DNA of 21,756 bases from a virus. Each line of letters begins with the position of its first letter. Position 1 is the stretch's first letter. This document shows, in pieces, positions 1 to 19,806 of the stretch. The stretch lies in IMG/VR virus record IMGVR_UViG_3300027797_001885, positions 1 through 21,756 of that record. One strand, written 5' to 3'. The notes beneath the pieces were generated by a model. It searched no databases, was not told the origin of the DNA, and saw nothing but the letters and a program-made list of their open reading frames with translations. The translations under genes and the position numbers were made by a program.

Positions 1-845
1 ACAAAGAGGAAGACGAATTCGAAGGTTTTGAAGACATTGATTCTTTCGGTAATGAAGAAGATGAAGAATCTGATATCGTTTACGAAATTGAAATGGATGA
101 TGAAATGGAGGAAGATGAAGAACCTGTTATGGAATCTAAAAAATCTATCCGACCAAAAGGTGTCGGAATGGGTAAAGCTAAATTTTCTTACGACTCTAAA
201 CCAAACCAAGGTAAAGGTTTTAATACTAAATTAAAACAAGGACCTAAATCTGTTGGAACAGGAAATGCGAAAAAAGGGTTCTCTTATGACAAATCAGGTG
301 AAAATCTTGATGGTGAATTTAAAGTGAAACCTAAAAAAGTTGAAGCGAAAGAGGCCTCAAGAATTAAAGGTAACGGTTCTGATTTTAGAGCAGGTGGTTT
401 ACCAAAACGAAGAGCACACTCATCAGCGAATACCGCAATCAAAGAAAACCAAAATAGACAAGAATTACAAATTCTTAGAGAGAAAAACGAAGAATACAGA
501 AAAGCACTTAACGTATTTAGAAATAAACTTAATGAAGTTGCGGTATTCAACTCAAACTTAGCTTACGCTACTCGTTTGTTTACTGAACACACTACAACTA
601 AACAAGAGAAAATCAATATTTTAAGACGTTTTGATTCTGTAGAAACTATCAAAGAATCTAAGAACTTATTCCAATCTCTAAAAAATGAGTTATCAGGTGA
701 TAATTCAAAACCATTAAATGAATCAATCGAAAGAACTATTGACAAATCACCTTCTACAGGGTCATCGGCAAACTTGATTGAATCAAAAACGTATGAAAAT
801 CCACAATTCCTAAGAATGAAAGATTTGATGACGAAAATAAAATAA
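1..845 (+). CDS. Prohead core scaffold protein, gp22-like (5' end outside the window)
   Basis: The frame is open to the left edge (first complete codon at 3), so the start is not visible; about 280 residues are seen. The visible N-terminal part is extremely acidic (runs of Glu/Asp), followed by a basic Gly/Lys-rich segment with a two-copy motif PK(G/S)VGxGxAK..FSYD, then a charged helical C-terminal half beginning near the codons at 440. That half contains FRNKLNEVAVFNSNLAYATR, reminiscent of T4-like core proteins, which scaffold the prohead and are cut up by the gp21 protease. Several (I/L)xE sites (IKE|N, LRE|K, LNE|V, LNE|S) fit such degradation. The position directly before the capsid gene matches the T4 order 22-23. 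The assignment is by context plus composition; an accessory head protein remains possible. Confidence 0.7.
   Translation, partial: KEEDEFEGFEDIDSFGNEEDEESDIVYEIEMDDEMEEDEEPVMESKKSIRPKGVGMGKAKFSYDSKPNQGKGFNTKLKQGPKSVGTGNAKKGFSYDKSGENLDGEFKVKPKKVEAKEASRIKGNGSDFRAGGLPKRRAHSSANTAIKENQNRQELQILREKNEEYRKALNVFRNKLNEVAVFNSNLAYATRLFTEHTTTKQEKINILRRFDSVETIKESKNLFQSLKNELSGDNSKPLNESIERTIDKSPSTGSSANLIESKTYENPQFLRMKDLMTKIK
153..290 (+). repeat. Two-copy protein repeat in the scaffold gene
   Basis: Two short copies, at about 153-194 and 243-290, encode PKGVGMGKAKFSYD and PKSVGTGNAKKGFSYD. They sit in the low-complexity basic linker between the acidic and helical parts. The repeat is visible at protein level; its function is unknown. 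Confidence 0.6.
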
Positions 846-880: not shown

Positions 881-2695
881 ATGGGAGCATTATTAGAATC
901 AGGTCTTGTAGGTAACATCGGGTTAAAACACCTTAAAGTTATCAAAGAAGATACAATCAACAAATGGGACAAATTAGGTTTCTTAGAAGACTTATCAGGT
1001 CACTTAAAAGAAAACGTAGCTCAGTTATATGAGAACCAAGCGTCTTTCTTAATTAACGAGGCAACTTCAGAAGGTTCAAACGGAGCGTTTGAAACTGTAG
1101 TTTTCCCTATCGTTAGACGTGTATTCTCTAAATTATTAGCGAATGACATCGTTTCTGTACAAGCAATGAACTTACCAATCGGTAAATTGTTCTACTTCGT
1201 ACCTAAAATCCAAGGATATGACGCTAACAACGAACACTACGCACCTGTAGGAGCACCTAACGGAGCTAACGTTGGTGATGGTTACGGAGCGGGTAGTACT
1301 TACGCAAATAAAAATCTTTATGATTTATTTTACGAAGGTTCTGAACCAGGTTTAGACCCAGCAGGATTATTTGATTACTCTAAAGGACAATGGACTGCAG
1401 TTACTGCAACTACTAATGTTCAAGTATGGTCAGGAAGTAGTTTAGTTGACGCAACATCAGCAACATTTAGTGGAGCTACAGTTAGAAAATTGATTCTTAA
1501 AGTATCAGGATTTTCTAACGTTGGTGCAGGTAAATTAATCGGACCTGACGGACAAGAAATGGATACTGAAACTTTCTTATCTGATTTAGTTATCACTAAA
1601 GGTGCAGGTTTAGAGATTGACGCTGACTCAGCTTGTGAAGTATCATCTACGTCACCATTATTATTTAGAGTTGTAACACAACAATATGGTAAAGGTATCG
1701 TTCAATACGGTGGTAGTCAATCAACAACTTTTGGTTCAGGAACAGGTAACAGTAACGGTGGTTCATTCTACGATATTTGTGACTCAACAGGGGTTATCTA
1801 TTTAGAAGTTGATTTGTCTTGTCCAGCTTGTGTTGGATGTGGAGCAGACACTTTAGATGGTTACACAGGTACAACAATTACATCTGCGGCAACTGCAACA
1901 TCATTCGTAGCAGTTTACAAAAGATACAAAGAATTAGAATTTGAAGACAAAATTGGTGAGGTTTCTTTTGACTTAGAGTCAGTTACAGTATCAGTTACTG
2001 AAAGAAAATTAAGAGCACAATGGTCTCCTGAGTTAGCTCAAGACGTTGCGGCTTTCCATAACATCGACGCTGAGGCTGAGTTAACTGCATTGTTATCTGA
2101 GCAAGTTGCAGCTGAGATTGACCGTGAAATCTTACGTGATTTACGTAAAGGAGCGGCTTGGAACCTACGTTGGGATTACAACGGATGGAGAAGAGTGAAC
2201 GGTTTAACTACATCTTATACTCAAAAAGATTGGAATCAAACGTTGATTACGGCTATTAACCAATTATCAGCACAAATTCACAAATCTACTTTGAGAGGTG
2301 GAGCTAACTGGATTGTTGTTTCTTCTGAAGTTTCAGCTATCTTTGATGATTTAGAATACTTCCACGTATCTAACGCATCTCCTGAACAAGACCAATACAA
2401 TATGGGTATTGAAAGAGTTGGTACATTAGCAGGTCGTTACCAAGTTTACCGTGACCCTTACTTCCCAGCAAACCAAGTATTGATTGGGCACAAAGGTACA
2501 TCATTGTTAGACACAGGTTACATCTACGCACCATACGTACCGTTACAATTAACTCCAACAATGTATAACCCATTCAACTTTACACCTATCAAAGGTATAA
2601 TGACGAGATACGCTAAGAAAATGGTTAATAACCGTTTCTACGCGAGAATCACAGTTGATGGTGTTCGTACATTTGACTTGAAAGAATTGAGATAA
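881..2695 (+). CDS. Major capsid protein (T4 gp23 family)
   Basis: This is the subunit of the phage head shell (HK97 fold), 604 residues against 521 in T4. The strongest family signature lies in the central/C-terminal part: VSFDLESVTVSVTERKLRAQ, then WSPELAQDVAAFHNIDAEAE and IDREIL, closely paralleling the T4 gp23 segment around 'ELAQDLRAVHGMDADAEL'. In the N-terminal part, the segment SFLINE|ATSEG (cut after residue 60, codon 61 at 1061) lines up with the T4 propeptide cleavage FLTE|AE after residue 65, so a gp21-type protease probably removes the first 60 residues. A Ser/Thr/Gly-rich stretch at about residues 120-330 looks like an enlarged insertion or surface domain and contains a CxxCxxC cluster (C314, C317, C320). 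The start is preceded by an A-rich leader without Shine-Dalgarno. A strong terminator follows, consistent with very high expression. Confidence 0.97.
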   Translation: MGALLESGLVGNIGLKHLKVIKEDTINKWDKLGFLEDLSGHLKENVAQLYENQASFLINEATSEGSNGAFETVVFPIVRRVFSKLLANDIVSVQAMNLPIGKLFYFVPKIQGYDANNEHYAPVGAPNGANVGDGYGAGSTYANKNLYDLFYEGSEPGLDPAGLFDYSKGQWTAVTATTNVQVWSGSSLVDATSATFSGATVRKLILKVSGFSNVGAGKLIGPDGQEMDTETFLSDLVITKGAGLEIDADSACEVSSTSPLLFRVVTQQYGKGIVQYGGSQSTTFGSGTGNSNGGSFYDICDSTGVIYLEVDLSCPACVGCGADTLDGYTGTTITSAATATSFVAVYKRYKELEFEDKIGEVSFDLESVTVSVTERKLRAQWSPELAQDVAAFHNIDAEAELTALLSEQVAAEIDREILRDLRKGAAWNLRWDYNGWRRVNGLTTSYTQKDWNQTLITAINQLSAQIHKSTLRGGANWIVVSSEVSAIFDDLEYFHVSNASPEQDQYNMGIERVGTLAGRYQVYRDPYFPANQVLIGHKGTSLLDTGYIYAPYVPLQLTPTMYNPFNFTPIKGIMTRYAKKMVNNRFYARITVDGVRTFDLKELR

Positions 2696-2775: not shown

Positions 2776-3453
2776 ATGAGAAACTTATTTGACCTTAGTA
2801 GTGAGGAACGTAATAGAATTTTATCATTACACGAAAATTCTACAAAAAAACAATATCTAAATGTAATTTCAGAACAAACAGGGACTGCATTAGACAATAA
2901 TAAGTTACCTGTGGGTAATGGTATCTCCAACTTTAAATCAAGTGTACCTAATATTACACCGTCAGCTGCACCAACAACACCAGCAACTTTAAAAGATGTT
3001 CAAACAATTTTAAGTGGGTTAGGTTATAATTTAGGTAAAGCGGGTGTTGATGGTAAATTAGGACCAAACACATTAAACGCATTAGTCGCGGCGTTAAAAA
3101 CGTCACAAAATTCAACCGCAACAAGTGGTAGTACGGCAACAAGTGGTGCGACAAGTGGAGGTACGGGTGATATTGTAACTCAATTATCTAACACCCCTTC
3201 AGCAAAAGCGATTATGGATAAATTAACTGCAGGTGGTGTTGACATAACAAAATTACCCGCAGACCAAATATTACCAAAAGTTCAGGAATTAGCCGGTGAT
3301 TTGTTAAAGGCCGACCCTAATTTATTAGCAACAATTAAAAGTACTATAGAGGCGGTAACTAAAACAAAATTACCCGACATTACGGCACCTGTCGCTTCAG
3401 GAGCAACAGTAACTAACGACGCATCAAATCCAGGGGGATTATTCAAACAATAA
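2776..3453 (+). CDS. Putative internal head/virion protein with peptidoglycan-binding-like domain
   Basis: This 225-residue protein has three visible parts. Residues 1-33 form a charged amphipathic helix (LSSEERNRILSLHE) ending in NVISE|Q, an (I/L)xE motif of the kind cut by T4-type prohead proteases. Residues about 71-110 resemble a PG_binding_1 domain (VQTILSGLGYNLG, then VDGKLGPNTLNAL). After a Ser/Thr/Gly/Ala linker (about 113-130), the C-terminal part is predicted helical and ends in a flexible tail. It lies just after the capsid gene and has its own TATTTATA box. I infer a small virion protein, possibly packaged in the head and matured by proteolysis; the family of the whole protein is not recognised. 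No catalytic lytic domain is visible, so a simple endolysin is unlikely. Confidence 0.65.
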   Translation: MRNLFDLSSEERNRILSLHENSTKKQYLNVISEQTGTALDNNKLPVGNGISNFKSSVPNITPSAAPTTPATLKDVQTILSGLGYNLGKAGVDGKLGPNTLNALVAALKTSQNSTATSGSTATSGATSGGTGDIVTQLSNTPSAKAIMDKLTAGGVDITKLPADQILPKVQELAGDLLKADPNLLATIKSTIEAVTKTKLPDITAPVASGATVTNDASNPGGLFKQ

Positions 3454-3455
3454 TC

Positions 3456-3689
3456 TTAATTAGTTTTGGTATTTTCTTCGGATGGTCTGTGAACTAATCT
3501 AACTGATTTTGAGATTATTTCACATTCCCCAAGAGAATAAACCCCATTTTCGTATGCGAATTTCACCGCCTGTGTTAAATAATATATGGCGGTTTTTTCG
3601 TCCATAGTGTTTATCATCATTTCAAGATGGTCCTCACTTAATAATGGGATTGAGTTAAATAAATTTCCGTATAATTGTTGTTCTTCCAT
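3456..3689 (-). CDS. Small hypothetical protein
   Basis: This 77-residue protein is not recognised. It is acidic in its first half and appears mostly helical (for example DEKTAIYYLTQAVKFAYENG). Its stop lies 2 nt from the stop of the convergent gene ending at 3453, with no obvious terminator between them. It is divergent from the gene at 3717, with a shared 27-nt A+T-rich spacer. Coding looks real because the frame fills the gap exactly and starts beside a plausible promoter box, but evidence is limited to that. Confidence 0.6.
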   Translation of the reverse strand: MEEQQLYGNLFNSIPLLSEDHLEMMINTMDEKTAIYYLTQAVKFAYENGVYSLGECEIISKSVRLVHRPSEENTKTN

Positions 3690-3716: not shown

Positions 3717-4376
3717 ATGAAAAATAATAAAATCCATATCAACGAAGCAACTTCCGACAGTTCGGGTAGTAGAGGTTCTTATGTAGCACCATTACAAATG
3801 GGGGTGAGAGAATTCAAAGACATTGATATGCAACCATTTACAATCCCTGTATCAAAATACAATGACGCAATGTTAGAGTACGATAGTTATGATGGTAAAA
3901 TGAGTCAACCTAAAAAAGTGGTTAACAAAATTGAGAAGAAAGCCAAAAAAAGTTCAGATTATCTTAAAAAACACCCAAATTTAACTAATAGTGATGAAGA
4001 TGGTAATGTGATTAACCAATATCCTGGTAAAGGAATGACTGTAGTCCCAATTAAAGAGGCCGACACATCAACAAGTTCGGGTGAATATTCAGGACCAATA
4101 GAACTTGGGATGAAGAAATGGGATTCAAATCATTTAGAACCTTTTACTGAATTTGTTAATACCGAAATCAATCATATAAAAGTGAAAAGTACAACAAAAA
4201 ATAACGTTAACAAAGTTGTTGGTGTTTGGGAAAAAAATAAAGAAGGTTCTTATGATGTTAACATCCATAATGTTCACACAATAAATGAACGTAGTCGTAA
4301 GAATAAAAAAATCATTAGATTAACTGAACGAGAGTTAATCAATATGATAAGACAAATAATTAATGAACAATATTAA
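3717..4376 (+). CDS. Repeat protein with prohead-protease-like sites; putative internal head protein
   Basis: This 219-residue protein is not recognised as a whole. It has two diverged copies of a unit: INEATSDSSGSRGSYVAPLQ onward (residues 8-42) and IKEADTSTSSGEYSGPIELG onward (112-144), each ending in (Q/E)PFT. Each unit opens with IxE|A, the cleavage pattern of T4-type prohead proteases, and the first (INE|ATS) is the same as the predicted maturation site of the capsid protein at 1052-1069. Two more sites occur at TINE|R (191) and IINE|Q (217). The C terminus, RLTERELINMIRQIINEQ, is an amphipathic helix that may act as a packaging tag. I infer a packaged internal protein cut into pieces during head maturation. 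A terminator follows immediately. Confidence 0.65.
   Translation: MKNNKIHINEATSDSSGSRGSYVAPLQMGVREFKDIDMQPFTIPVSKYNDAMLEYDSYDGKMSQPKKVVNKIEKKAKKSSDYLKKHPNLTNSDEDGNVINQYPGKGMTVVPIKEADTSTSSGEYSGPIELGMKKWDSNHLEPFTEFVNTEINHIKVKSTTKNNVNKVVGVWEKNKEGSYDVNIHNVHTINERSRKNKKIIRLTERELINMIRQIINEQY
3738..4148 (+). repeat. Diverged internal duplication within the 3717-4376 gene
   Basis: Copies at about 3738-3842 and 4050-4148 encode units aligned as I(N/K)EA...SSG...Y..P(L/I)(Q/E)(L/M)G(V/M)(R/K)...PFT, separated by a Lys-rich spacer. The similarity is clear at protein level and weak at DNA level, so the duplication is old. Confidence 0.75.
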
Positions 4377-10693: not shown

Positions 10694-11440
10694 TTACTTG
10701 ACCATTTTTTGAATTAATGAAAAATACATACTTTTATATTTCTTCATTGAACTCCTAATTTCTTTTGTGGATAGATTGGTCATTTCTCTGAGTGAGAGTA
10801 GAACTATATTTTTATTAAACTTATTATTATCATTACCAATGAAGATACTTTGATAATTTTCGAATAAATCATATAGTGCGTGACCAAGTTTCAATTCATT
10901 ATCTGACAAATTTTCATTCTTAACAAACTCATCTAACTCTTTTAAAAAATTAACAATAATAGTTGGGGCATCAATCCCGTCACTTTCTATACTGTAAGAA
11001 TACTCGTCATTATTTTCCAAATCATACGAAATGTCCTCATAGGAAATTTTTCGATTGGTTTCTTTTTGGTCTTTAATGATTTGACCCATTAAATAATTTT
11101 TACAGATAGTCCCAAAATAAGAATAAGCCTTCTTTTCTTTAGCCGGCTTGAACTTATCTATTTTGGTCATCAAAAAGGAGTGAGTATCTATATGGATTTC
11201 GTAAAAGTCCATATCTTTTCTGTATAGTTTGTATCTTCGAATAATTGAAGATATCATCTTATCTAAAGGTTTTCTTAAAAAATCATTGTATATTTTATTT
11301 TTTTCTTCGAAAGTAGTTGCGGTTAAATAATTTACAACCGCTAACTCCTCTCTGACATCAAAATAATTTTCTTGTGTTGGTTTTCTACCTTTCTTTTTTA
11401 ACTCCGTACTTGTTTCATTAATTACATTGTTATCGTCCAT
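10694..11440 (-). CDS. Late-transcription RNA polymerase sigma factor, gp55-like
   Basis: This 248-residue protein should direct host RNA polymerase to late phage promoters, as T4 gp55 does. The core signature is KFKPAKEKKAYSYFGTICKN followed by YLMGQIIKDQKETNRKISYE (about residues 113-153), matching the sigma-2 region of gp55 proteins in which 'aYFt.i..N.f...ikkekk' binds the polymerase coiled coil and the -10 region. The C-terminal part has a helical segment (LREMTNLSTKEIRSSMKKYK) that looks like a helix-turn-helix-type region. It starts with a 1-nt TAATG overlap with the upstream glycosyltransferase gene, so the two are cotranscribed. T4 late promoters are a bare -10 element, relevant to the TATTTATA boxes in this window. 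Confidence 0.82.
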   Translation of the reverse strand: MDDNNVINETSTELKKKGRKPTQENYFDVREELAVVNYLTATTFEEKNKIYNDFLRKPLDKMISSIIRRYKLYRKDMDFYEIHIDTHSFLMTKIDKFKPAKEKKAYSYFGTICKNYLMGQIIKDQKETNRKISYEDISYDLENNDEYSYSIESDGIDAPTIIVNFLKELDEFVKNENLSDNELKLGHALYDLFENYQSIFIGNDNNKFNKNIVLLSLREMTNLSTKEIRSSMKKYKSMYFSLIQKMVK

Positions 11441-12243
11441 TAAACTGTTTCAGGTTCAAATTTTATGGCTCTGTCATTGATAAAGAAATATTCTTTTTTA
11501 GCCGATTCAACCCAAAATCTAACCTCATCATCAGTTAATACGTCTTCACCATTTTTGTAGTTCCAAAAGATAGAACCTTCACGTAAATTTATGTGTTTAT
11601 AACCAATTCTTGGTATTGACATTATTTTAACTGAATTATGTGTCATTCTCAAGAAAAACTCATACCCAAACGTTAATTTGAATGATGGTTTAAATAAACC
11701 ATAATCAATGAATTTATCTTTTTTAATAACAATTCCTGATGTTTGGAAGTTTTGATATTGTTGTAAAGTTTCGTTACTTAAAATACCCATTTCTTGACTA
11801 AAGTTCGCCGCAAATGTTGCTTCGTTAGTAAATCCTGCAAATACACCTTTATCAGTTGTGTCAACAACAATAGGTAAAAATGCGTCAACATCAGAATATG
11901 ATTTAGAATATAAATCAACATTCTTAAACCAAATTGCCGAGTACTCGTCATCAAATTCAAATAATGATATCCATTTAGAACTCGCCTCTCTAACTCCAAG
12001 GTTTACTTGTTCCGCATAACTTGGGGATTTAGTCCATTCAATTTTTTTAACATTAATATCACCAAAATCAAATGAATCTAAAAATTCAACTAAATGAGTT
12101 TCATTGGTATGAACGATGATTAATTCGTTAATAGATAATCTTTGGAATTTAATTGATTCAATTGCTTTTCCAAAATATTCATCAAAGTTTAAAACTTTAG
12201 ATGATTTAATAGGTAATATTACCGATACGTCAAATTTTTCCAT
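11440..12243 (-). CDS. Glycosyltransferase family 2-like protein
   Basis: The start at 12243 (MEKFDVSVILPIKSS) is chosen because it follows the upstream TAA by one nucleotide and leaves the GT-A fold intact; an in-frame ATG at 12318 would overlap the upstream gene by 74 nt. The 267-residue protein has the GT2 opening beta strand (VSVILPIK), a middle 'QVNLGVREASSKWISLFEFDDE' type arrangement with an EFDDE acidic cluster where the metal-binding DxD usually lies, and later LFKPSFKLTFGYEFFLRM typical of the acceptor side. The acidic motif differs from a classical DxD, so activity is probable but not certain. It forms a pair with the adjacent GT-B gene; the target sugar and acceptor are unknown. 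Confidence 0.75.
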   Translation of the reverse strand: MEKFDVSVILPIKSSKVLNFDEYFGKAIESIKFQRLSINELIIVHTNETHLVEFLDSFDFGDINVKKIEWTKSPSYAEQVNLGVREASSKWISLFEFDDEYSAIWFKNVDLYSKSYSDVDAFLPIVVDTTDKGVFAGFTNEATFAANFSQEMGILSNETLQQYQNFQTSGIVIKKDKFIDYGLFKPSFKLTFGYEFFLRMTHNSVKIMSIPRIGYKHINLREGSIFWNYKNGEDVLTDDEVRFWVESAKKEYFFINDRAIKFEPETV

Positions 12244-12244
12244 A

Positions 12245-13306
12245 TTAGTCTTCGATTGTTTGTAGTTTAGATAATTGGTCCTCAAATGATTTTTGTCTAA
12301 ATGAGAAATACTCTTCAAATAAAGTAACCGCTTGTTTATTAAAATCTTCTTTAGTTGGTAATGATTCCACCGTAGATTTCATTTTTTCGTGAAATTCTTC
12401 ACTAATGTTGTCCTCTAACCAATTTTGTAAATGGTCAGCGATAACGTCAATAATTTGTGTTTTATTATGAACCCAAATACCATTATCTTCATTAATCCAA
12501 TTAGGTAGTAGATTTGGTACTAAACCAATAACCGGTACGTTAGACTTCATAGACTCCAATGGGAAAGTTCCGTAACCACTAACTTCGTCAACCCATACAG
12601 ATAAAAAACTCTCACCTAATTTTTTGGAAAATTCAACCTCACTTAAACCTCTCATATCACTTAGTGTTACCCATCTATATTGAGGGTATTTCAAATAAAA
12701 CCCTTTAATTATGTTGATAGTATCTCTTTGGTCTCTTGAGTGAATTGATACGATTGTCTTAGCCGGTAATTTACTTGGTTTGAAATTGTCTGAAATAACA
12801 GGTGTTAAGATATCAAAAGAAACGTTTTTCATAATTTGTTGAATATGTTCTTTTTGTTCTTCAGATGTTGTTATACATTTGTAGAAACCAAATTGTGACC
12901 AAGATTCACCTGGATTTAATGTTTCCAACATATTGTCATATGCTTGACATAAAACAATTTTACCACAAGGTAATTGAGTGATTTGACTCATAATGAACGC
13001 AAAAAGTTCAGGTACAACAATAAAATCATCAGGTGTTACTTGTAAAGATTGACCTTCAATTGATTGATGAGGTAACTCAGCATATTCTTCACCCAACCAA
13101 GACGATACACCTGTGTAATCAGGTTTTTCGTGTAAGATAATTGGGTTAAACCCATTACTCTTTAATGATAATGCCAATTTGTAAATGTACGCAATTGATG
13201 CTTTAGCGTTTCCTTTAGTGTCTTGAACCACTAAATAAATTTTTGAAGTCTTGTTTTTTAAGTTCTCAACTGACTTTTCAATTTTTTCGATTTGTTCTTG
13301 ATTCAT
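12245..13306 (-). CDS. GT-B fold glycosyltransferase (GT4-like)
   Basis: The 353-residue protein begins with a helical segment and a Rossmann strand (KIYLVVQDTKGNAKASIAYI) consistent with the acceptor domain. The C-terminal domain has the donor-binding signature of GT4-like enzymes: SVWVDEVSGYGTFPLESMKS followed by NVPVIGL, with the paired Glu spacing near positions 235-250, and GIWVHN. It is likely to transfer a nucleotide-activated sugar in the host cytoplasm. Gaps of 1 nt on each side place it in the same transcript as the GT2-like gene after it. A separate assembly or scaffold role is less likely. Confidence 0.78.
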   Translation of the reverse strand: MNQEQIEKIEKSVENLKNKTSKIYLVVQDTKGNAKASIAYIYKLALSLKSNGFNPIILHEKPDYTGVSSWLGEEYAELPHQSIEGQSLQVTPDDFIVVPELFAFIMSQITQLPCGKIVLCQAYDNMLETLNPGESWSQFGFYKCITTSEEQKEHIQQIMKNVSFDILTPVISDNFKPSKLPAKTIVSIHSRDQRDTINIIKGFYLKYPQYRWVTLSDMRGLSEVEFSKKLGESFLSVWVDEVSGYGTFPLESMKSNVPVIGLVPNLLPNWINEDNGIWVHNKTQIIDVIADHLQNWLEDNISEEFHEKMKSTVESLPTKEDFNKQAVTLFEEYFSFRQKSFEDQLSKLQTIED

Positions 13307-13307
13307 A

Positions 13308-13574
13308 TTAATATTTGTTTAGGATTTTTTTATTTAAAAGAGTGTTAAAAGCCAACTTAAACGGGATTGAAAGTTCAGAACTTTTAGACCCTAATGTTTC
13401 ATCAACTTCTTCAGCTTCGGTCATTAATATTTCGACCATTGTCTTAACCATTTCATATTTGACAACACTGATGTGAGTTTCTCCCGATACAACTTCTTTA
13501 GGATGTTCGATGTTGATATATGACTCCATTGCGTCAATATCTAAATAATAATGTTCATTTAATACTTTTAACAT
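13308..13574 (-). CDS. Small hypothetical protein
   Basis: This 88-residue protein is not recognised. The sequence starts MLKVLNEHYYLDIDAMESYI, is acidic overall, and predicts helix in the middle (VVKYEMVKTMVEILMTEAEE) and C terminus (SIPFKLAFNTLLNKKILNKY). It overlaps the HAD-like gene by 7 nt and is 1 nt before the GT-B gene, so it is translated from the same operon. Nothing in the sequence indicates a function. Confidence 0.65.
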   Translation of the reverse strand: MLKVLNEHYYLDIDAMESYINIEHPKEVVSGETHISVVKYEMVKTMVEILMTEAEEVDETLGSKSSELSIPFKLAFNTLLNKKILNKY

Positions 13575-14170
13575 TGTAATAATTCTTTTAATTTATCATC
13601 CAACTCTTTAATCGTTGTAATCGTATGTTTAGACTCAATATCTTTATTGTATTCAGTTTCATATTTAATCACAATTTTATTGTTTGGATACTCTAATAAT
13701 AACACAGGATTAGACGTAAGTAAAACATCAATTTCATCCCACATTGAATTTATTGTAAGATTACTATAAAATTTTACTTTTTCTAATTGACAACCGAACT
13801 TTGAAAGGAAGAATAATGTTGCCGGTTTTGATTTACCAATTTCGTCAGAAACAATCAACAATTCGTTTTCGTCTCGGTATTTAACATAAATTTCTTGTAA
13901 ATCGTTAAAGGAACTGTATTCGCTTGATTGTGAATGACCAAAGATTTCCATTGCAAATTCTTCATATAAAAATGAGAATAATTCCTCATCTGACTGAAAC
14001 TCAAAATGGTTTTTTAATTCTAAAGATGTGACGGGTAAATTAATCTTATATTCAAAAGGGTCTTCGTCATCAATCCCATCTGTTTTATCAATATAAAATT
14101 TTTGGTAAGTTTGTTCTATCTTACCAATGGTGTTCCGAAGAACACCATTAACTTCAATTCCAATTCTCAT
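13568..14170 (-). CDS. HAD-like protein with degenerate catalytic motif
   Basis: The N terminus MRIGIEVNGVLRNT aligns with the HAD hydrolase motif I pattern 'IGIDxDGVLRDT'. The nucleophile Asp is replaced by Glu (E6) and the acid/base Asp by Asn (N8), so ordinary HAD phosphatase chemistry is not expected. Later blocks also fit: LLIVSDEIGKSKPATLFFLS resembles motif II (Ser) and motif III (Lys), and FYSNLTINSMWDEIDVLLTS resembles the end of the fold. Length (200 residues) is normal for small HAD proteins. It lies 2 nt after the PhoH stop. A binding or structural role seems more likely than phosphatase activity; the function is inferred from fold only. Confidence 0.6.
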   Translation of the reverse strand: MRIGIEVNGVLRNTIGKIEQTYQKFYIDKTDGIDDEDPFEYKINLPVTSLELKNHFEFQSDEELFSFLYEEFAMEIFGHSQSSEYSSFNDLQEIYVKYRDENELLIVSDEIGKSKPATLFFLSKFGCQLEKVKFYSNLTINSMWDEIDVLLTSNPVLLLEYPNNKIVIKYETEYNKDIESKHTITTIKELDDKLKELLQC

Positions 14171-14172
14171 TC

Positions 14173-14922
14173 TTATTTTGACTCGTTATCGTATTTGTCA
14201 AGGATTCTTGAGATTTTTGGGTTTCTAACAATATCTTTTTTATTCGTGAATTCAAATACTTTTACAGTATCATCTGTATCATCCCTGAATTTTTGAATTG
14301 CGTCCCACAAACCACTCTGTCTCTTGTCTTTATATCTGTCAGACTGTTCAACGTCACCAGATATGAAAAATTTACTATTAAAACCTATTCTTGTCAATAG
14401 CAATTTCATTTGACTAGGTGTTGCGTTTTGTCCTTCTTCAAAAATTAAGATTGAATTGTCAATGTTCATACCTCTCATAAACGCCAATGCAAATACCTCG
14501 ATGACTTCAATTTCTTTTAACTTTTCTCTCGCCTCTTTACCTATAATCTTATTTAATAAGTAATAAGATGGGAAAATATACGGGTCCAACTTTTCCTCCA
14601 TATTACCGGGTAATGAACCTAATTTCTCTTCAGCTTCAACCGCAGGTCTAACTATGATTATCTTTTCGTATGGTGTTGTAGGGTCAGATAACAAATCAAT
14701 CGCTGCTTTCATTGTTATATAACTTTTACCAACACCTGCAGGTCCTGAACAGACCGTAATTTCATTATTAATTAATGTCTCGTAATACCTTTTTTGAGTG
14801 TCAGTTAAAAACTTCTCTTTAGTTTTACGTTTAATGATTTGGGCAATAATGTCTTTACGATTCATCGGTTGTTTAACCTCTGTTGTCTCAGTACTTGGTG
14901 TGACTTTTTTTCTGTTAGCCAT
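14173..14922 (-). CDS. phoH: PhoH-like P-loop ATPase
   Basis: This 249-residue protein is a common auxiliary gene of T4-like phages. Clear PhoH features are Walker A CSGPAGVGKS (residues 58-67), IVRPAVEAEEKLGSLPG with the family KLGxLPG phrase (about 90-106), Walker B ILIFEEGQNATPSQMK (158-172, EEGQN in place of the usual DEAQN) and SGDVEQSDR (188-196). The first 30 residues are a basic, low-complexity extension. PhoH proteins are predicted ATPases with roles in RNA metabolism or phosphate stress, not firmly known in phages. It starts a new segment after a 100-nt intergenic gap containing a palindrome. The gene symbol is by family resemblance. Confidence 0.92.
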   Translation of the reverse strand: MANRKKVTPSTETTEVKQPMNRKDIIAQIIKRKTKEKFLTDTQKRYYETLINNEITVCSGPAGVGKSYITMKAAIDLLSDPTTPYEKIIIVRPAVEAEEKLGSLPGNMEEKLDPYIFPSYYLLNKIIGKEAREKLKEIEVIEVFALAFMRGMNIDNSILIFEEGQNATPSQMKLLLTRIGFNSKFFISGDVEQSDRYKDKRQSGLWDAIQKFRDDTDDTVKVFEFTNKKDIVRNPKISRILDKYDNESK

Positions 14923-14942
14923 TTAATTTCATTTAAGTTTTA

Positions 14943-14959
14943 TAGATGATTATCATCTA
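14943..14959. promoter_or_regulatory. Palindrome upstream of phoH, candidate operator
   Basis: TAGATGAT-T-ATCATCTA is a perfect inverted repeat of 8-bp arms around one base, 20 nt upstream of the phoH ATG in the 100-nt gap 14923-15022. This is the only intergenic gap of that size in the minus-strand block, so a promoter is expected there; no full Bacteroidetes promoter match was seen (TAGATTTA is a near match to the -7 element). Confidence 0.4.
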
Positions 14960-15022
14960 ACTTTAAATAGTCATTACATTAAATCTATTTATTAAAGAAT
15001 AGTTAAGTCTAAGTAAAAGTAA

Positions 15023-16531
15023 TCAACGAATAACCTCTATATATTTTTTAATGTGAATCATATTATCAACAATGTATGGTGTCATAATATTATTAAAATC
15101 ATTACTCATAGACGTAACATTGTCGTTATTTTCATTTCTAGTTTGACTTTCGTAATGATACGCAACTAGTGAACCATCAAAAACATTTTCAAAACCCATA
15201 GTAATTAATGACAAATTTAATTCCACATCTTCAAAACAATTGGTGTATTTTTCGTTGAAGAGACCTGCATTAATAAATGATTTTTTTCTAACTCCTAATA
15301 ACGCACCTGTTGACCCGGCAATCGTTTTGGTTCCTGTTGTGTAATTAAAATAATTACGTAATCCGTGATGTGTTAAGGATATATTATTTGCTTGGCTAAA
15401 AAACAATTTAATTCCGTCGTGTTGGACTGTATTGTCTTCAAAATGAAGTCGACACCCAACCGTACCTGTTTTAGGTTTTTCCTTAAATGTTTTTAACATA
15501 CCATAAACAACATTATTTAATAGTTTAATATCGTTATTACAAAATAATAAAAATTCATATTCGTCACCAATATAATCCCTAACAACCTCATTATTTATCT
15601 TAGCGAAGTTATAGTAATCAAATTCAATTAAGTTAACATTAGTGTTCTCATATCTTGATTTAATAAGTTCTTTCTCTTCATTTGAAGAACCCGTGTCAGC
15701 AATAAAAATATCATATAATGATGAATTGCATTGTTTGTGAAATGAGTCAATACAATCAAATAATAAATCCAACTTACTTTTAGTTGGGATGATAACCGCC
15801 ATTTTACCTATATTTTTTATTTGTTTTTCTTTAATTTGGGAAACATAAATTTGGTTAGGTTTTAAATCTAACGGTAATTTATTCCCGTATTTTTTAACAA
15901 ATAATTCTTTAGATTCGAAAAATTCTTGATTAGGTCGACCAATTGATTGGTGAGTTATTTCAAAAGATGATGTTACCCCAATTTTAACCCCTTCCAAATA
16001 ATTTGGTACACAAAACAAATGGTCATAGAAATGGAAACGTCCAATAGATTCGTCAAATGTGTGCTTAATTTTTGTTTTATCAAACGAAATAAACAAACCG
16101 TCAATAGTTACCACAGGAACTAAAAAAGGTAATTTTGGTGAATACTTATTTAACCATTTTTTTGCTCCGTCGGGGTGGTGATAAACTTGACCAACCATAG
16201 TTTGTGTCATTCTATCCCAATAAACACCTGACTCAGGAAAATAACAACTACCCGCCTTTCCGATAATACCATATTCAGGATTCTCAGAAAAATCTTCTAA
16301 TAATTTTTTACCCCAATTTTTTTCAAGTTTGATGTCATTGTGACAACAAACTATAATATCATTTTCAGATATTTCAATTCCCAAGTTATACACATATGAC
16401 AATGAATATTCATTTCTGTTCTCAACCTCCAAGATTTGGGGGTTTTTAACTCCTATAGTTTCTAATAAATGTTTTTTAAACTTTTTATTGTATTCTGAAT
16501 CTTTGTGTGTTGAATATATTACTGTTATCAT
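15023..16531 (-). CDS. Tandem two-domain glycosyltransferase (two GT2 domains)
   Basis: The 502-residue product holds two GT-A type domains. Domain 1 (about 1-200) starts MITVIYSTHKDSEYN and has IIVCCHNDIKLEKNWGKKLL as its nucleotide/metal region. Domain 2 starts near residue 243 with MAVIIPTKSKLDLLFDCIDS and contains FLLFCNNDIKLLNN, then STGALLGVRK and FNEKYTNCFEDVELNLSL, which are typical GT2 rhamnosyl/galactofuranosyl-like phrases. Both acidic motifs read ND rather than the usual DxD. Such bifunctional enzymes often add alternating sugars to a polysaccharide. It starts with a 4-nt ATGA overlap with the methyltransferase gene, so it is translationally coupled to the sugar cluster. Confidence 0.85.
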   Translation of the reverse strand: MITVIYSTHKDSEYNKKFKKHLLETIGVKNPQILEVENRNEYSLSYVYNLGIEISENDIIVCCHNDIKLEKNWGKKLLEDFSENPEYGIIGKAGSCYFPESGVYWDRMTQTMVGQVYHHPDGAKKWLNKYSPKLPFLVPVVTIDGLFISFDKTKIKHTFDESIGRFHFYDHLFCVPNYLEGVKIGVTSSFEITHQSIGRPNQEFFESKELFVKKYGNKLPLDLKPNQIYVSQIKEKQIKNIGKMAVIIPTKSKLDLLFDCIDSFHKQCNSSLYDIFIADTGSSNEEKELIKSRYENTNVNLIEFDYYNFAKINNEVVRDYIGDEYEFLLFCNNDIKLLNNVVYGMLKTFKEKPKTGTVGCRLHFEDNTVQHDGIKLFFSQANNISLTHHGLRNYFNYTTGTKTIAGSTGALLGVRKKSFINAGLFNEKYTNCFEDVELNLSLITMGFENVFDGSLVAYHYESQTRNENNDNVTSMSNDFNNIMTPYIVDNMIHIKKYIEVIR

Positions 16532-17184
16532 AATTTCTTAATTACAAATAAATTACTACTTTTTAAATCGGGACAATTTGTTTTTTTGATTAAATCATAA
16601 TCAACACTTCCCATTATCTCAAATAAATTTGAGTCTAAACCATCCACTATCTCATTAACCGCACCAAAAACTTCAGGACTATGAATTTCATCCATATAAT
16701 CATCAAAAACAATGTACCCATTTTGTTTGACAATTTTTTCGTAGTTGTTGAAGTCATTAATTACCCCATTTCTAGTATGGTCACCATCAATAAACAAAAT
16801 ATCAACATTAGTTATTTTTTCGGTAACTTGTCTAACAATATCTACATTAGCCGAGTCACCTTCAATATATTCATATTCACATTGGTTATGTTTAAATTTA
16901 TTCACATTATTTATCGGTATCTCTTTATTAATCGGACGACCAATATCTAAACTATAACAATGACTAACTTTAGGGTTAGTTGACATTAAGGATGCGGAAC
17001 CACCGGCAAACGACCCAATTTCAAAATATTTTATATTGTCATTATCAATTGAGTTACAAATATCATACAGTATATGATAATGATTATGAAACGTATTACC
17101 GTCCATTTTATTAATAATCTCATTTACGAGATTTATTGATTCTTCAGTAATCTGAAAATCAATCGCGTTCAAAACCTTCTTCAT
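16528..17184 (-). CDS. Class I SAM-dependent methyltransferase (Methyltransf_24-like)
   Basis: The 218-residue protein has the usual methyltransferase strands in order: KYFEIGSFAGGSASLM (motif I, Gly-rich SAM loop), YSLDIGRP (motif II acidic), YEYIEGDSANVD, and VDILFIDGDHTRNGVINDFN (motif IV region), followed by NGYIVFDDY. The DGDH pattern is characteristic of the family that includes sugar O-methyltransferases. It probably methylates a sugar made by the neighbouring enzymes. It overlaps the upstream GT2 gene by 26 nt and the next gene by 4 nt. Protein or small-molecule methylation is an alternative. Confidence 0.82.
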   Translation of the reverse strand: MKKVLNAIDFQITEESINLVNEIINKMDGNTFHNHYHILYDICNSIDNDNIKYFEIGSFAGGSASLMSTNPKVSHCYSLDIGRPINKEIPINNVNKFKHNQCEYEYIEGDSANVDIVRQVTEKITNVDILFIDGDHTRNGVINDFNNYEKIVKQNGYIVFDDYMDEIHSPEVFGAVNEIVDGLDSNLFEIMGSVDYDLIKKTNCPDLKSSNLFVIKKL

Positions 17185-17869
17185 CGTGTCTACAAGTTAA
17201 TTTGTTTATGTATAAACTTTTTAAGTTTAAACTTTTAATTACAATTCTACATCTTTCCCATAAGTCCCCGTCAGACGGTAACCCAACAAATTTATTTATA
17301 TCAAATAAATCACGGTATTGTAGTGGTATTTTTTTAAAATTCATACAAACAGAAGAATGTATCAATCCAGCATATCTTGGGTAAAATATTTGATATTCTT
17401 CAGGGTTATTTGTAATAGGTAAATAATTTTGGTTAGATGCGTAAGTTGATTGTGTACAAACCCAATCCGCATTTGTTTCCTCAATACATTTGTTAATTTC
17501 AAATAAATGATTAGGTAACCACCAATCATCGTGGTCTAAATGACAAATATATTCATACCCATTATCTAAAGACTCTTTAATTCCAATATTAACCGCATTA
17601 ACCCCACCATATGACCATAAAGCCTGTTTATTATCTTGGTAGTTATCACGTTCTTTGGCGTAACTTAAATTCTTAAAACTAATTTTAGTATTATCGTAAT
17701 TACTAATTAAATCCAAAATATCTTGTTCGGTTTCATATTTATCACCGATTAAAAATATTTTAAAATTCTGATATGTTTGGTTAAAAACTGAATCTAACGC
17801 TCTTTTTAAACAAACAAGAGTACTACCATCTTTTCGTTCATATGTACTCATTACTATTGAAAACTCCAT
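17159..17869 (-). CDS. Glycosyltransferase family 2
   Basis: The 236-residue protein is a compact GT-A enzyme: FSIVMSTYERKDGSTLVCLK at the start, then RALDSVFNQTYQNFKIFLIG, and CHLDHDDWWLPNHLFEIN with the DHDD motif that binds the metal and nucleotide sugar. The catalytic region and the length are near the minimum for GT2 enzymes. It is likely to transfer one sugar in the host cytoplasm. It lies 1 nt after the PglD-like gene and overlaps the methyltransferase start by 26 nt, so these genes act together. The start MEFSIVMSTYER is supported by the position of the first beta strand. Confidence 0.85.
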   Translation of the reverse strand: MEFSIVMSTYERKDGSTLVCLKRALDSVFNQTYQNFKIFLIGDKYETEQDILDLISNYDNTKISFKNLSYAKERDNYQDNKQALWSYGGVNAVNIGIKESLDNGYEYICHLDHDDWWLPNHLFEINKCIEETNADWVCTQSTYASNQNYLPITNNPEEYQIFYPRYAGLIHSSVCMNFKKIPLQYRDLFDINKFVGLPSDGDLWERCRIVIKSLNLKSLYINKLTCRHDEEGFERD

Positions 17870-17870
17870 C

Positions 17871-18455
17871 CTATTTAATTTGTTTTGTTGGTGTTCCTAC
17901 ATAAACCCCACTTTTATCAATACTCTTAACCACCCCCGAATTTAACCCAATTACAACATCGTCAGTTATTGTTATTTTTTCTTTAATTGATGCGTTAGTA
18001 CCGATATAAACCCTATCTTTAATAATACAATTACCCGATATTTTAGCTCCAGGTGCCGTTGTAAAATAGTCTCCGATTATTGTATCGTGACCAACCGTTG
18101 TCATTAGATTCAAATGAGAGTGTTTACCTATTTTAATATTTGTTGTCAATATTGTACCCGCACAAACAATAGTTCCTTCAGATATTTCTATATTATTATC
18201 TAATATTAATACCGAAGGATGTATGAATGTAAAATATTTCGTGTCTTTTGGAAGTCTTTGGATTATATCAAATCGTAATTTTGGGTCCCCGATAGCTACT
18301 AAAACCTCAAACACTAAAGGATTAAAATCGGATAGTTTAAAAATATTTGGTTCGTTGTTATAATATTTGTCATCAACAAAACAAGGTAACTCAGTACCCA
18401 TATGTGCCATAATTTCTCTTGCAAAACCACCGGCACCAATTAATGCTTTTTTCAT
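17871..18455 (-). CDS. PglD/NeuD-like sugar acyltransferase (left-handed beta-helix)
   Basis: The 194-residue protein begins with a small Rossmann-like domain (MKKALIGAGGFAREIMAH), then DPKLRFDIIQRLP and FIHPSVLI, and ends in hexapeptide repeats of a left-handed beta-helix (NIEISEGTIVCAGTIL, IKIGKHSHLNLMTTVGHDTI, VYIGTNASIKEKITITDDVV, GVYVGTPTKQI). The NxxxxVGHD region carries the catalytic His of the PglD/NeuD family. Such enzymes acetylate an amino or hydroxyl group of a nucleotide sugar. With the DegT-like gene nearby this suggests an acetamido-sugar pathway. Adjacent genes abut directly, with no gap upstream. The length is normal for the family. Confidence 0.9.
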   Translation of the reverse strand: MKKALIGAGGFAREIMAHMGTELPCFVDDKYYNNEPNIFKLSDFNPLVFEVLVAIGDPKLRFDIIQRLPKDTKYFTFIHPSVLILDNNIEISEGTIVCAGTILTTNIKIGKHSHLNLMTTVGHDTIIGDYFTTAPGAKISGNCIIKDRVYIGTNASIKEKITITDDVVIGLNSGVVKSIDKSGVYVGTPTKQIK

Positions 18456-19178
18456 TTATGATTGGAAATTATGTTTATTTACTTTACCACCACTGTAGTC
18501 ATTATCGTAATAATTATAAATAAATTCTGAGTATAATCCACTCATATAAGTTAATATAATATTACCTTGTATATTTTGATTATATTCGTCAAATAAAATA
18601 TCTGATAGTTTTTCAAACATTGGATGTTGTACATTCCACCCAATATATTTTGCGGAAACAATACTTAATTCATTGTAATTAATTTTATTATCCTCTAAAA
18701 TTAATTTATATCTGTCTGTTGATTCTCGGATTTCTTTATGATTATATGACCATCTTGGTGTTCCACAAGAATGTTGACATTCAATTTCAAGGTTATCTCT
18801 ATCACCTTGAAAAAATCCTGATGTTACAAAAAGAGCGTATTTGTCTTCACAAGAATTAACAAACTTTTCATAGTTTAACCATAAACTATCAATGTTACTA
18901 TCACAAATAAAAACATATCGAGGATTTTCTAATTCAGGTACTGTTTTTAATGGGTATGAATTAATAAAAGCAATTAACCTACGACGTTCAATTGGGTCAA
19001 CAATATGTTCGTATTGTGTTACCCTTTTAATGTAATTCCACCCCAATTCTTTCGCTAACGTCACATTTTCAAGAGTGTCGGTAACATAAACGGTTTTTAA
19101 ATGTGTTGGTAAATTTTTAGGTGGCGCTACTACTTTTTCGTAATTGAAGAGATTCTTAACTAAAAAATAATCATTCAT
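18456..19178 (-). CDS. Uncharacterised protein, possibly glycosyltransferase-like
   Basis: The 240-residue protein is not confidently recognised. YVTDTLENVTLAKELGWNYI followed by PIERRRLIAFINSYPL and YVFICDSNIDSLWLNYEKF resembles a GT-A-like layout in which a DSN phrase would take the place of the DxD, as in some DUF616-type enzymes; this is a tentative reading. The C-terminal part contains HSCGTPRWSYNHKE and several Tyr-rich segments. Its place between the aminotransferase-like gene (8-nt overlap) and the PglD-like gene (abutting) supports a role in the same sugar pathway, for example as a transferase. Confidence 0.5.
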   Translation of the reverse strand: MNDYFLVKNLFNYEKVVAPPKNLPTHLKTVYVTDTLENVTLAKELGWNYIKRVTQYEHIVDPIERRRLIAFINSYPLKTVPELENPRYVFICDSNIDSLWLNYEKFVNSCEDKYALFVTSGFFQGDRDNLEIECQHSCGTPRWSYNHKEIRESTDRYKLILEDNKINYNELSIVSAKYIGWNVQHPMFEKLSDILFDEYNQNIQGNIILTYMSGLYSEFIYNYYDNDYSGGKVNKHNFQS

Positions 19179-19806
19179 TTTCGGAATATATTTTAAATTT
19201 AGACAAATCAGGATATGGTAATTCTAAATCTTCATTGTGTTTTGGAGTACCATCAATATTATAAAATTGTTTCATTAATAAAACCCCTCTAGCCGCCAAT
19301 TCAGGCATCATATAAAAATTCCATCCAATCATATCAAAATGGTCATCGTGATAAGAACATTCACGTCTACCACTATATCTTGCTCTTTTAAACCAAAGAT
19401 ACGCATCATAATCATCAGTTAATATCGCACCACCTTTAGATAATTTAAAATGTTTATAAGGACCTGTAAATGAAATACACATATGTGTGTTTGGTTTATA
19501 CATATTATGTGTAAATGATAATGCCGAATCCCAAACTTTAGTTGGTGACAATTGATAAGAACCTTTAATCGTTTTACCCTCTACCTGTCTAAATTTAACT
19601 TTACCACCTGCGTGAATAATTTCACAAGGAACTGACGGGTAAGTTCTGTTTGGTATTTCAATTTCTACACCTTTTACTTTTTCATACATTAATGACAAAA
19701 ATAAGGCATTACTTTGGTTGTCCACAGTAACCACATAAGGGGCTCCTGTATAATCGCCCAACTCTTTTTCAAAGTCTTCTGTTATTTTATAAATTCCGTT
19801 TGACAT
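19171..19806 (-). CDS. Short DegT/DnrJ/EryC1/StrS-type aminotransferase
   Basis: The 211-residue protein keeps the PLP-binding blocks of sugar aminotransferases: FEKELGDYTGAPYVVTVDNQ, IPNRTYPSVPCEIIHAGGKV, VWDSALSF (Asp that contacts the PLP ring), and ISFTGPYKHFKLSKGGAIL, where K118 sits seven residues before GG as the catalytic Lys does in the family. GWNFYMMPELAARGVLL matches the 'mpelqAA' block. Family members are usually about 370 residues; here the middle segment is compressed and the C-terminal ~150 residues are missing, with no frameshift visible. It may be a reduced but active enzyme, or may need a partner. It would transfer an amino group to a keto sugar, upstream of the PglD-like step. 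Confidence 0.75.
   Translation of the reverse strand: MSNGIYKITEDFEKELGDYTGAPYVVTVDNQSNALFLSLMYEKVKGVEIEIPNRTYPSVPCEIIHAGGKVKFRQVEGKTIKGSYQLSPTKVWDSALSFTHNMYKPNTHMCISFTGPYKHFKLSKGGAILTDDYDAYLWFKRARYSGRRECSYHDDHFDMIGWNFYMMPELAARGVLLMKQFYNIDGTPKHNEDLELPYPDLSKFKIYSENE

Follow-up and report, generated by a model that had tools for sequence, protein, structure and literature searches.

The C-terminal helix of a small protein encoded downstream of the capsid gene in a T4-like phage is one copy of a movable element, the LTE tag, which probably serves as a removable head-targeting propeptide, cut off once it has docked its protein in the prohead core. Comparison across phage sequences establishes the modularity of the element, its sharp boundary at a glutamate, the match of this boundary to the capsid cleavage site, its co-occurrence with gp23 and the S77 protease and its exchange for a short helix; for the tagged proteins, we infer core docking, actual cleavage, packaging and injection.

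The window analyzed here covers the whole of an IMG/VR record (21,756 bases) and carries the end of a T4-like phage head module, comprising the end of the presumed scaffold gene, gp23 and then the genes starting at 2776, 3456 (minus strand) and 3717. The features on which the argument draws are as follows, an arrow marking each boundary or predicted cut.

3-845 (+): C-terminal part of the presumed prohead scaffold protein (gp22 position), assigned by synteny
881-2695 (+): major capsid protein, gp23 family (PF07068, E=2.2e-74)
881-1060 (+): capsid protein propeptide, ending FLINE60↓A61, by alignment to T4 gp23 E65↓A66
2776-2874 (+): second tag family, MRNLFDLSSEERNRILSLHENSTKKQYLNVISE↓, residues 1-33 of the 225-aa protein encoded at 2776-3453
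3717-4376 (+): tagged protein of 219 aa, encoded downstream of gp23, its modules divided by [ILV]xE sites
3717-3746 (+): N-terminal leader MKNNKIHINE↓ of that protein, predicted cut INE10↓A11, identical to the capsid site from P3 to P1'
4050-4058 (+): predicted cut within the protein, IKE114↓A115, where two similar modules meet
4281-4289 (+): predicted cut INE191↓R192, preceding the C-terminal tag
4308-4367 (+): LTE-type tag, C-terminal copy KIIRLTERELINMIRQIINE, residues 198-217 (matrix score 41.5, null 0)

The scaffold assignment is based on a relative, G019, in which the counterpart sits between the S77 protease and gp23; the C terminus ESKTYENPQFLRMKDLM(T/S)KIK is common to the window and G019, and family searches with the presumed scaffold (3-845) returned no match. 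The small gene between the 2776 and 3717 genes (3456-3689, minus strand) has no family match, and its relatives are similarly placed in about 20 loci. Elsewhere in the window, the genes of a minus-strand run (11440-19806) look from their sequence like those for glycosyltransferases, acetyltransferases, aminotransferases and methyltransferases and may form a sugar-modification cluster. Descriptions exist of large freshwater phages that encode TerL, a prohead protease and MCP, with Bacteroidetes as predicted hosts (PMC9723584).

The consensus of the LTE tag is mostly MKKIIRLTESDLxRIVKRVIxE↓, and the last 20 residues of the 219-aa protein represent one copy. Among the fetched phage loci (2.0 Mb), a regular expression detected 153 copies, a count that is not a frequency because the tag pattern itself had served to fetch most of the loci; loci fetched as gp23 relatives, independently of that pattern, yielded 25 tag matches in 1.0 Mb. 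With a matrix of 20-21 positions, five large phage sequences (156-296 kb) gave 40-42 tagged ORFs, and shuffled or reversed proteins gave none. Across all the IMG/VR loci, 231 distinct tagged proteins fall into 159 unrelated clusters after removal of the tag (E<1e-4), so that it is not confined to one orthologous family. The original prediction, that the helix recurs on unrelated proteins rather than within a single family, is thereby borne out. The location of the element is, as a correction to the original picture, overwhelmingly N-terminal (223 copies, versus 6 C-terminal and 6 internal). Each phage sequence encodes 6-12 LTE-tagged proteins, in addition to proteins with other leader types, and the tagged proteins are no smaller than other phage proteins. 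Among 112 tagged representatives, matches were confined to 7 Pfam families, and the families recovered from Pfam and PHROGs are few and weak, with the exception of peptidoglycan-binding and endolysin-type domains.

The matrix found no tag in crAss001 and 63 crAss-like loci (821 kb), nor in T4 and immuto (329 kb), though both of the latter have S77; a tblastn search of isolated phages with the consensus tag gave no match, the query being too short to inform alone. Two tagged genes, MKIKKNG(K/Q)VIRLTESDLKKIVKRVLIE, were observed together with gp23 and S77 on a Prochlorococcus AG-409-L21 contig of 63,985 bases (L483, L486), which extends the range of the tag to a marine phage captured within a single-cell assembly of a cyanobacterium. 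The motif string is not mentioned in the papers searched, and no paper in the literature searched joins the terms capsid targeting sequence, metagenomics and Bacteroid-.

The boundary of the tag is defined by its terminal glutamate. Among unrelated representatives every tag position carries 1-4 bits of information, the terminal glutamate 3.8 bits; beyond it, in the short-form tags, the content falls to 1.2 bits at the next residue, 0.4 at the second and about 0.1 further on. When N-terminal tags were picked by their first 16 positions only (n=247), glutamate was found to end 245 of them, at position 19 in 221 cases and at position 23 in 24, the latter form being four residues, or about one helical turn, longer; one tag ends in aspartate. 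P3 is I, L or V in all 122 short-form representatives.

This boundary corresponds to the cleavage site of the capsid protein, in that the P1 glutamate of the tag is the P1 residue of the capsid site and the P3 preference matches as well. The window capsid sequence FLINE60↓ATSEG aligns with T4 gp23 E65↓A66, and INE↓A is present in 47 of the 47 capsid proteins matched by search. The propeptide of T4 gp23 comprises 65 residues (PMC5694885). In G019 the S77 protease lies 2 kb upstream of gp23, with H85, S140 and D168 of the T4 enzyme kept. S77 was detected in 26 of the 37 large records examined, most of which were chosen for carrying the tag pattern, and gp23 occurs together with it; wherever both were searched, tag-bearing records that have a full gp23 also have S77. 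Thirteen tested tag-pattern records without S77 and gp23 are also without terminase (PF03237), which was present in 7 of 7 S77-positive records tested, and the gaps are for this reason best read as incomplete contigs. The expected coincidence with T4-like capsid genes was thus observed, since none of the tag-bearing viral records tested that has a terminase is without gp23 and S77, although this co-occurrence is supportive rather than independent proof, as the tag-bearing phages are largely one clade.

A natural exchange of leaders is found in the YMFFSN protein (L417 1119-1799, minus strand, and 35 relatives; alignment A5, 36 members), a family that adjoins the capsid gene in relatives and was not found in the window. 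Members of the family begin with one of two leaders, the LTE tag MKKIIKLTESDLNKIVKKVLQE↓Q or the short helix MRNLDRIIKKVLRE↓E; ahead of the conserved mature part, no residue other than E22 is invariant. The swap points to a common core of roughly [IL][IV][KR][KR][IV][IL]xE↓, which is near in size to the T4 capsid targeting sequence, or CTS (10 residues). In the five large phage sequences, N-terminal helices of this type that end in glutamate occur within the first 50 residues at 3-8 times their density in the remainder, compared with 1.0-1.9 times when the pattern ends in another polar residue. The AlphaFold2 model of the YMFFSN protein is of low overall confidence (pTM 0.32).

In the 3717-4376 protein, the C terminus reads ...HTINERSRKNKKIIRLTERELINMIRQIINEQY, of which RLTERELINMIRQIINEQ represents residues 201-218 (4317-4370). 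AlphaFold2 predicts a confident, isolated helix at residues 204-218 with a disordered linker before it, in a model of low overall confidence (pTM 0.34). Cleavage at the originally proposed terminal INE↓QY would remove only two residues, and the predicted useful site is instead INE191↓R192 upstream; the column of E191 is near-invariant across 39 homologues, and a cut at this position would free the last 28 residues. The 39 aligned family members are chains of two or three modules with [ILV]xE sites between them, a polyprotein-like architecture in which the sites read INE↓ATSDSSG, IKE↓ADTSTSSG, often TINE↓DLAVWFG (basic module), and NE↓S before the C-terminal helix. The basic module, DLAVWFGTKKKPKG...PKCRAAGVAGKM, is found in most homologues (alignment A4) and is absent from the window copy. 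The window copy also ends differently, with the LTE tag in place of the last module, behind INE191↓RS. The N-terminal leader is swapped in homologues for other short ones, mostly ending [ILV]xE↓A/S/G.

An upstream site is common among the eight C-terminal tag copies (window, L001, L012, L028, L456 and L370, all of the 3717 family; L180; and G007 185198). An [NK]E site lies no more than about 14 residues upstream in seven of the eight, across three unrelated families, with a chance expectation of 5-8% per sequence; the sole exception, L370, has no such site. P3 of the upstream site is sometimes P or another non-hydrophobic residue instead of I or L. A fixed-offset pattern for C-terminal tags also picked one record in which the matrix sees no tag.

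As a removable propeptide, the amphipathic helix, located mostly at the N terminus and in a few proteins at the C terminus, would dock the protein into the prohead core, where the gp21-type (S77) protease of the phage would cleave [I/L/V]-x-E behind its glutamate. Tags at the N terminus would be released by a cut at their own end and tags at the C terminus by a cut at a second xNE site just upstream (INE191↓RS in the 3717 protein), and the freed protein would remain in the head with the DNA and probably be injected. Docking alone might explain why an amphipathic helix stands at one end of a protein or the other, if the helix were a scaffold- or host-binding motif that is kept uncut and its terminal glutamate merely the end of the helix. 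This is unlikely, given that the terminal glutamate is essentially never replaced by D or Q, that the P1 and P3 preferences are those of the capsid site, that E22 is the sole invariant N-terminal residue of the YMFFSN family despite the swapped prefix, and that C-terminal copies bring a second site.

The prediction that a gp21-type protease always accompanies the tag is upheld by the terminase-bearing viral records tested but not by a few Prevotella chromosomes. The form of the tag that is longer by four residues, SDLHRIVKESVNRVLxE, is found in single orphan genes in about 9 of 200 Prevotella/Segatella genomes, and neither S77 nor gp23 was detected in the 12 Bacteroidales genomes tested.

L491 1104-1367, L501 5795-6823, L504 53-874, L505 256-981 (-): longer-form tags standing as orphans on chromosomes or MAG contigs of Prevotella/Segatella

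Several of these copies come after diverse N-terminal regions and a linker of low complexity, to which they are fused, and they may be captured phage genes; their occurrence without S77 and gp23 means that the tag is not strictly confined to protease-bearing genomes. These sporadic copies, together with the restriction of the tag largely to one T4-like clade, in which co-occurrences are not independent, would suit a host-takeover or localization label that acts in the infected cell independently of the head, the association with gp21 and gp23 then reflecting shared ancestry. The cleavage-type boundary, the leader swap and the position of a tagged family next to the capsid gene make such a role decidedly improbable.

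It is more improbable still that the helix forms half of a ribbon-helix-helix DNA-binding domain, or part of another folded N-terminal domain. The segment KxIIRLTESDL... does read as a strand plus a helix, as in the CopG/Arc proteins, but conservation stops after one helix with unrelated sequence beyond, tag copies also occur C-terminally and mid-protein, and 0 of 112 representatives match such a Pfam family; with no conserved second helix to complete a strand and two conserved helices, this candidate was rejected. A mobile DNA or translation-start element, as opposed to a protein signal, is scarcely credible and was likewise rejected, for although most copies of the tag open a gene, others are C-terminal or internal, and all common synonymous codons are in use for its conserved residues, which indicates that selection acts on the protein.

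The N-terminal helix of the 2776 protein, originally regarded as analogous, belongs to a separate, also recurrent family. The leader MRNLFDLSSEERNRILSLHENSTKKQYLNVISE precedes Q, and the core of the family, [IL][ST]EEEKxRILxxH ... YLxE↓Q, recurs N-terminally in many unrelated proteins of these phages and was found in 0 of 1,687 control genes; only this core motif was used, as the iterated matrix drifted to an unrelated minus-strand family. The second tag also tends to end [L/I]xE↓Q, while its sequence family differs from that of the LTE tag. Behind the leader, the 2776-3453 protein has weak peptidoglycan-binding similarity (PF09374, E=0.006; PF01471, E=0.02). In a broader scheme, offered as a long shot, interchangeable labels (LTE, SEEEKNRIL and the short IIKKVLxE helix) would load some 12-24 proteins per phage into the head from either end, and the Prevotella orphans would be proteins of a host or satellite that enter heads by means of a copied label.

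If the propeptide reading is correct, sequence alone would tell, by way of the tag, which of the many unannotated proteins that uncultured T4-like jumbo phages encode travel in the head, probably to be injected. With only 7 Pfam families among the 112 representatives, it would provide the first functional hint for well over a hundred families, as well as a candidate signal for packaging, possibly one that can act at the C terminus too.

The closest parallel is the CTS of the T4 internal proteins IPI-III, which, like the LTE tag, is a short N-terminal peptide common to otherwise unrelated proteins, with glutamate at P1 and a hydrophobic P3; in the T4 genome it ends FIAE↓A or FIKE↓D. In the T4 propeptide, residues 4 and 7 target the protein to the core and P3 and P1 (residues 8 and 10) govern processing, and in IPIII aspartate at position 10 permits targeting and blocks processing (PMC9026906). 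The originally proposed likeness to the T4 CTS is supported by modularity, the glutamate boundary and gp23/S77 co-occurrence, but does not extend to homology, as the tag has no similarity to MKTYQEFIxE beyond the cleavage site and its matrix has no T4 match. On the points tested the tag appears to work like the T4 CTS; membership is not claimed, because homology was sought and not found and packaging and cleavage are predicted only. The propeptides of SPN3US and phiKZ head and ejection proteins are cut after glutamate by S77-related proteases, with head targeting inferred (PMC5694885), as is predicted for the LTE tag, but are described as mostly longer than 100 residues and not one shared movable sequence (PMC5694885). 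T4 Alt, which has N- and C-terminal propeptides and is cut by gp21 at both ends (PMC9026906), provides a known case in which the prohead protease removes a C-terminal propeptide, although it is one protein, without a movable shared tag. Compared with the T4 CTS of 10-19 residues, the LTE tag is 20-24 residues in length, has C-terminal and internal copies and is found on 6-12 proteins per phage sequence, and would represent a label of different sequence that is far more widely used.
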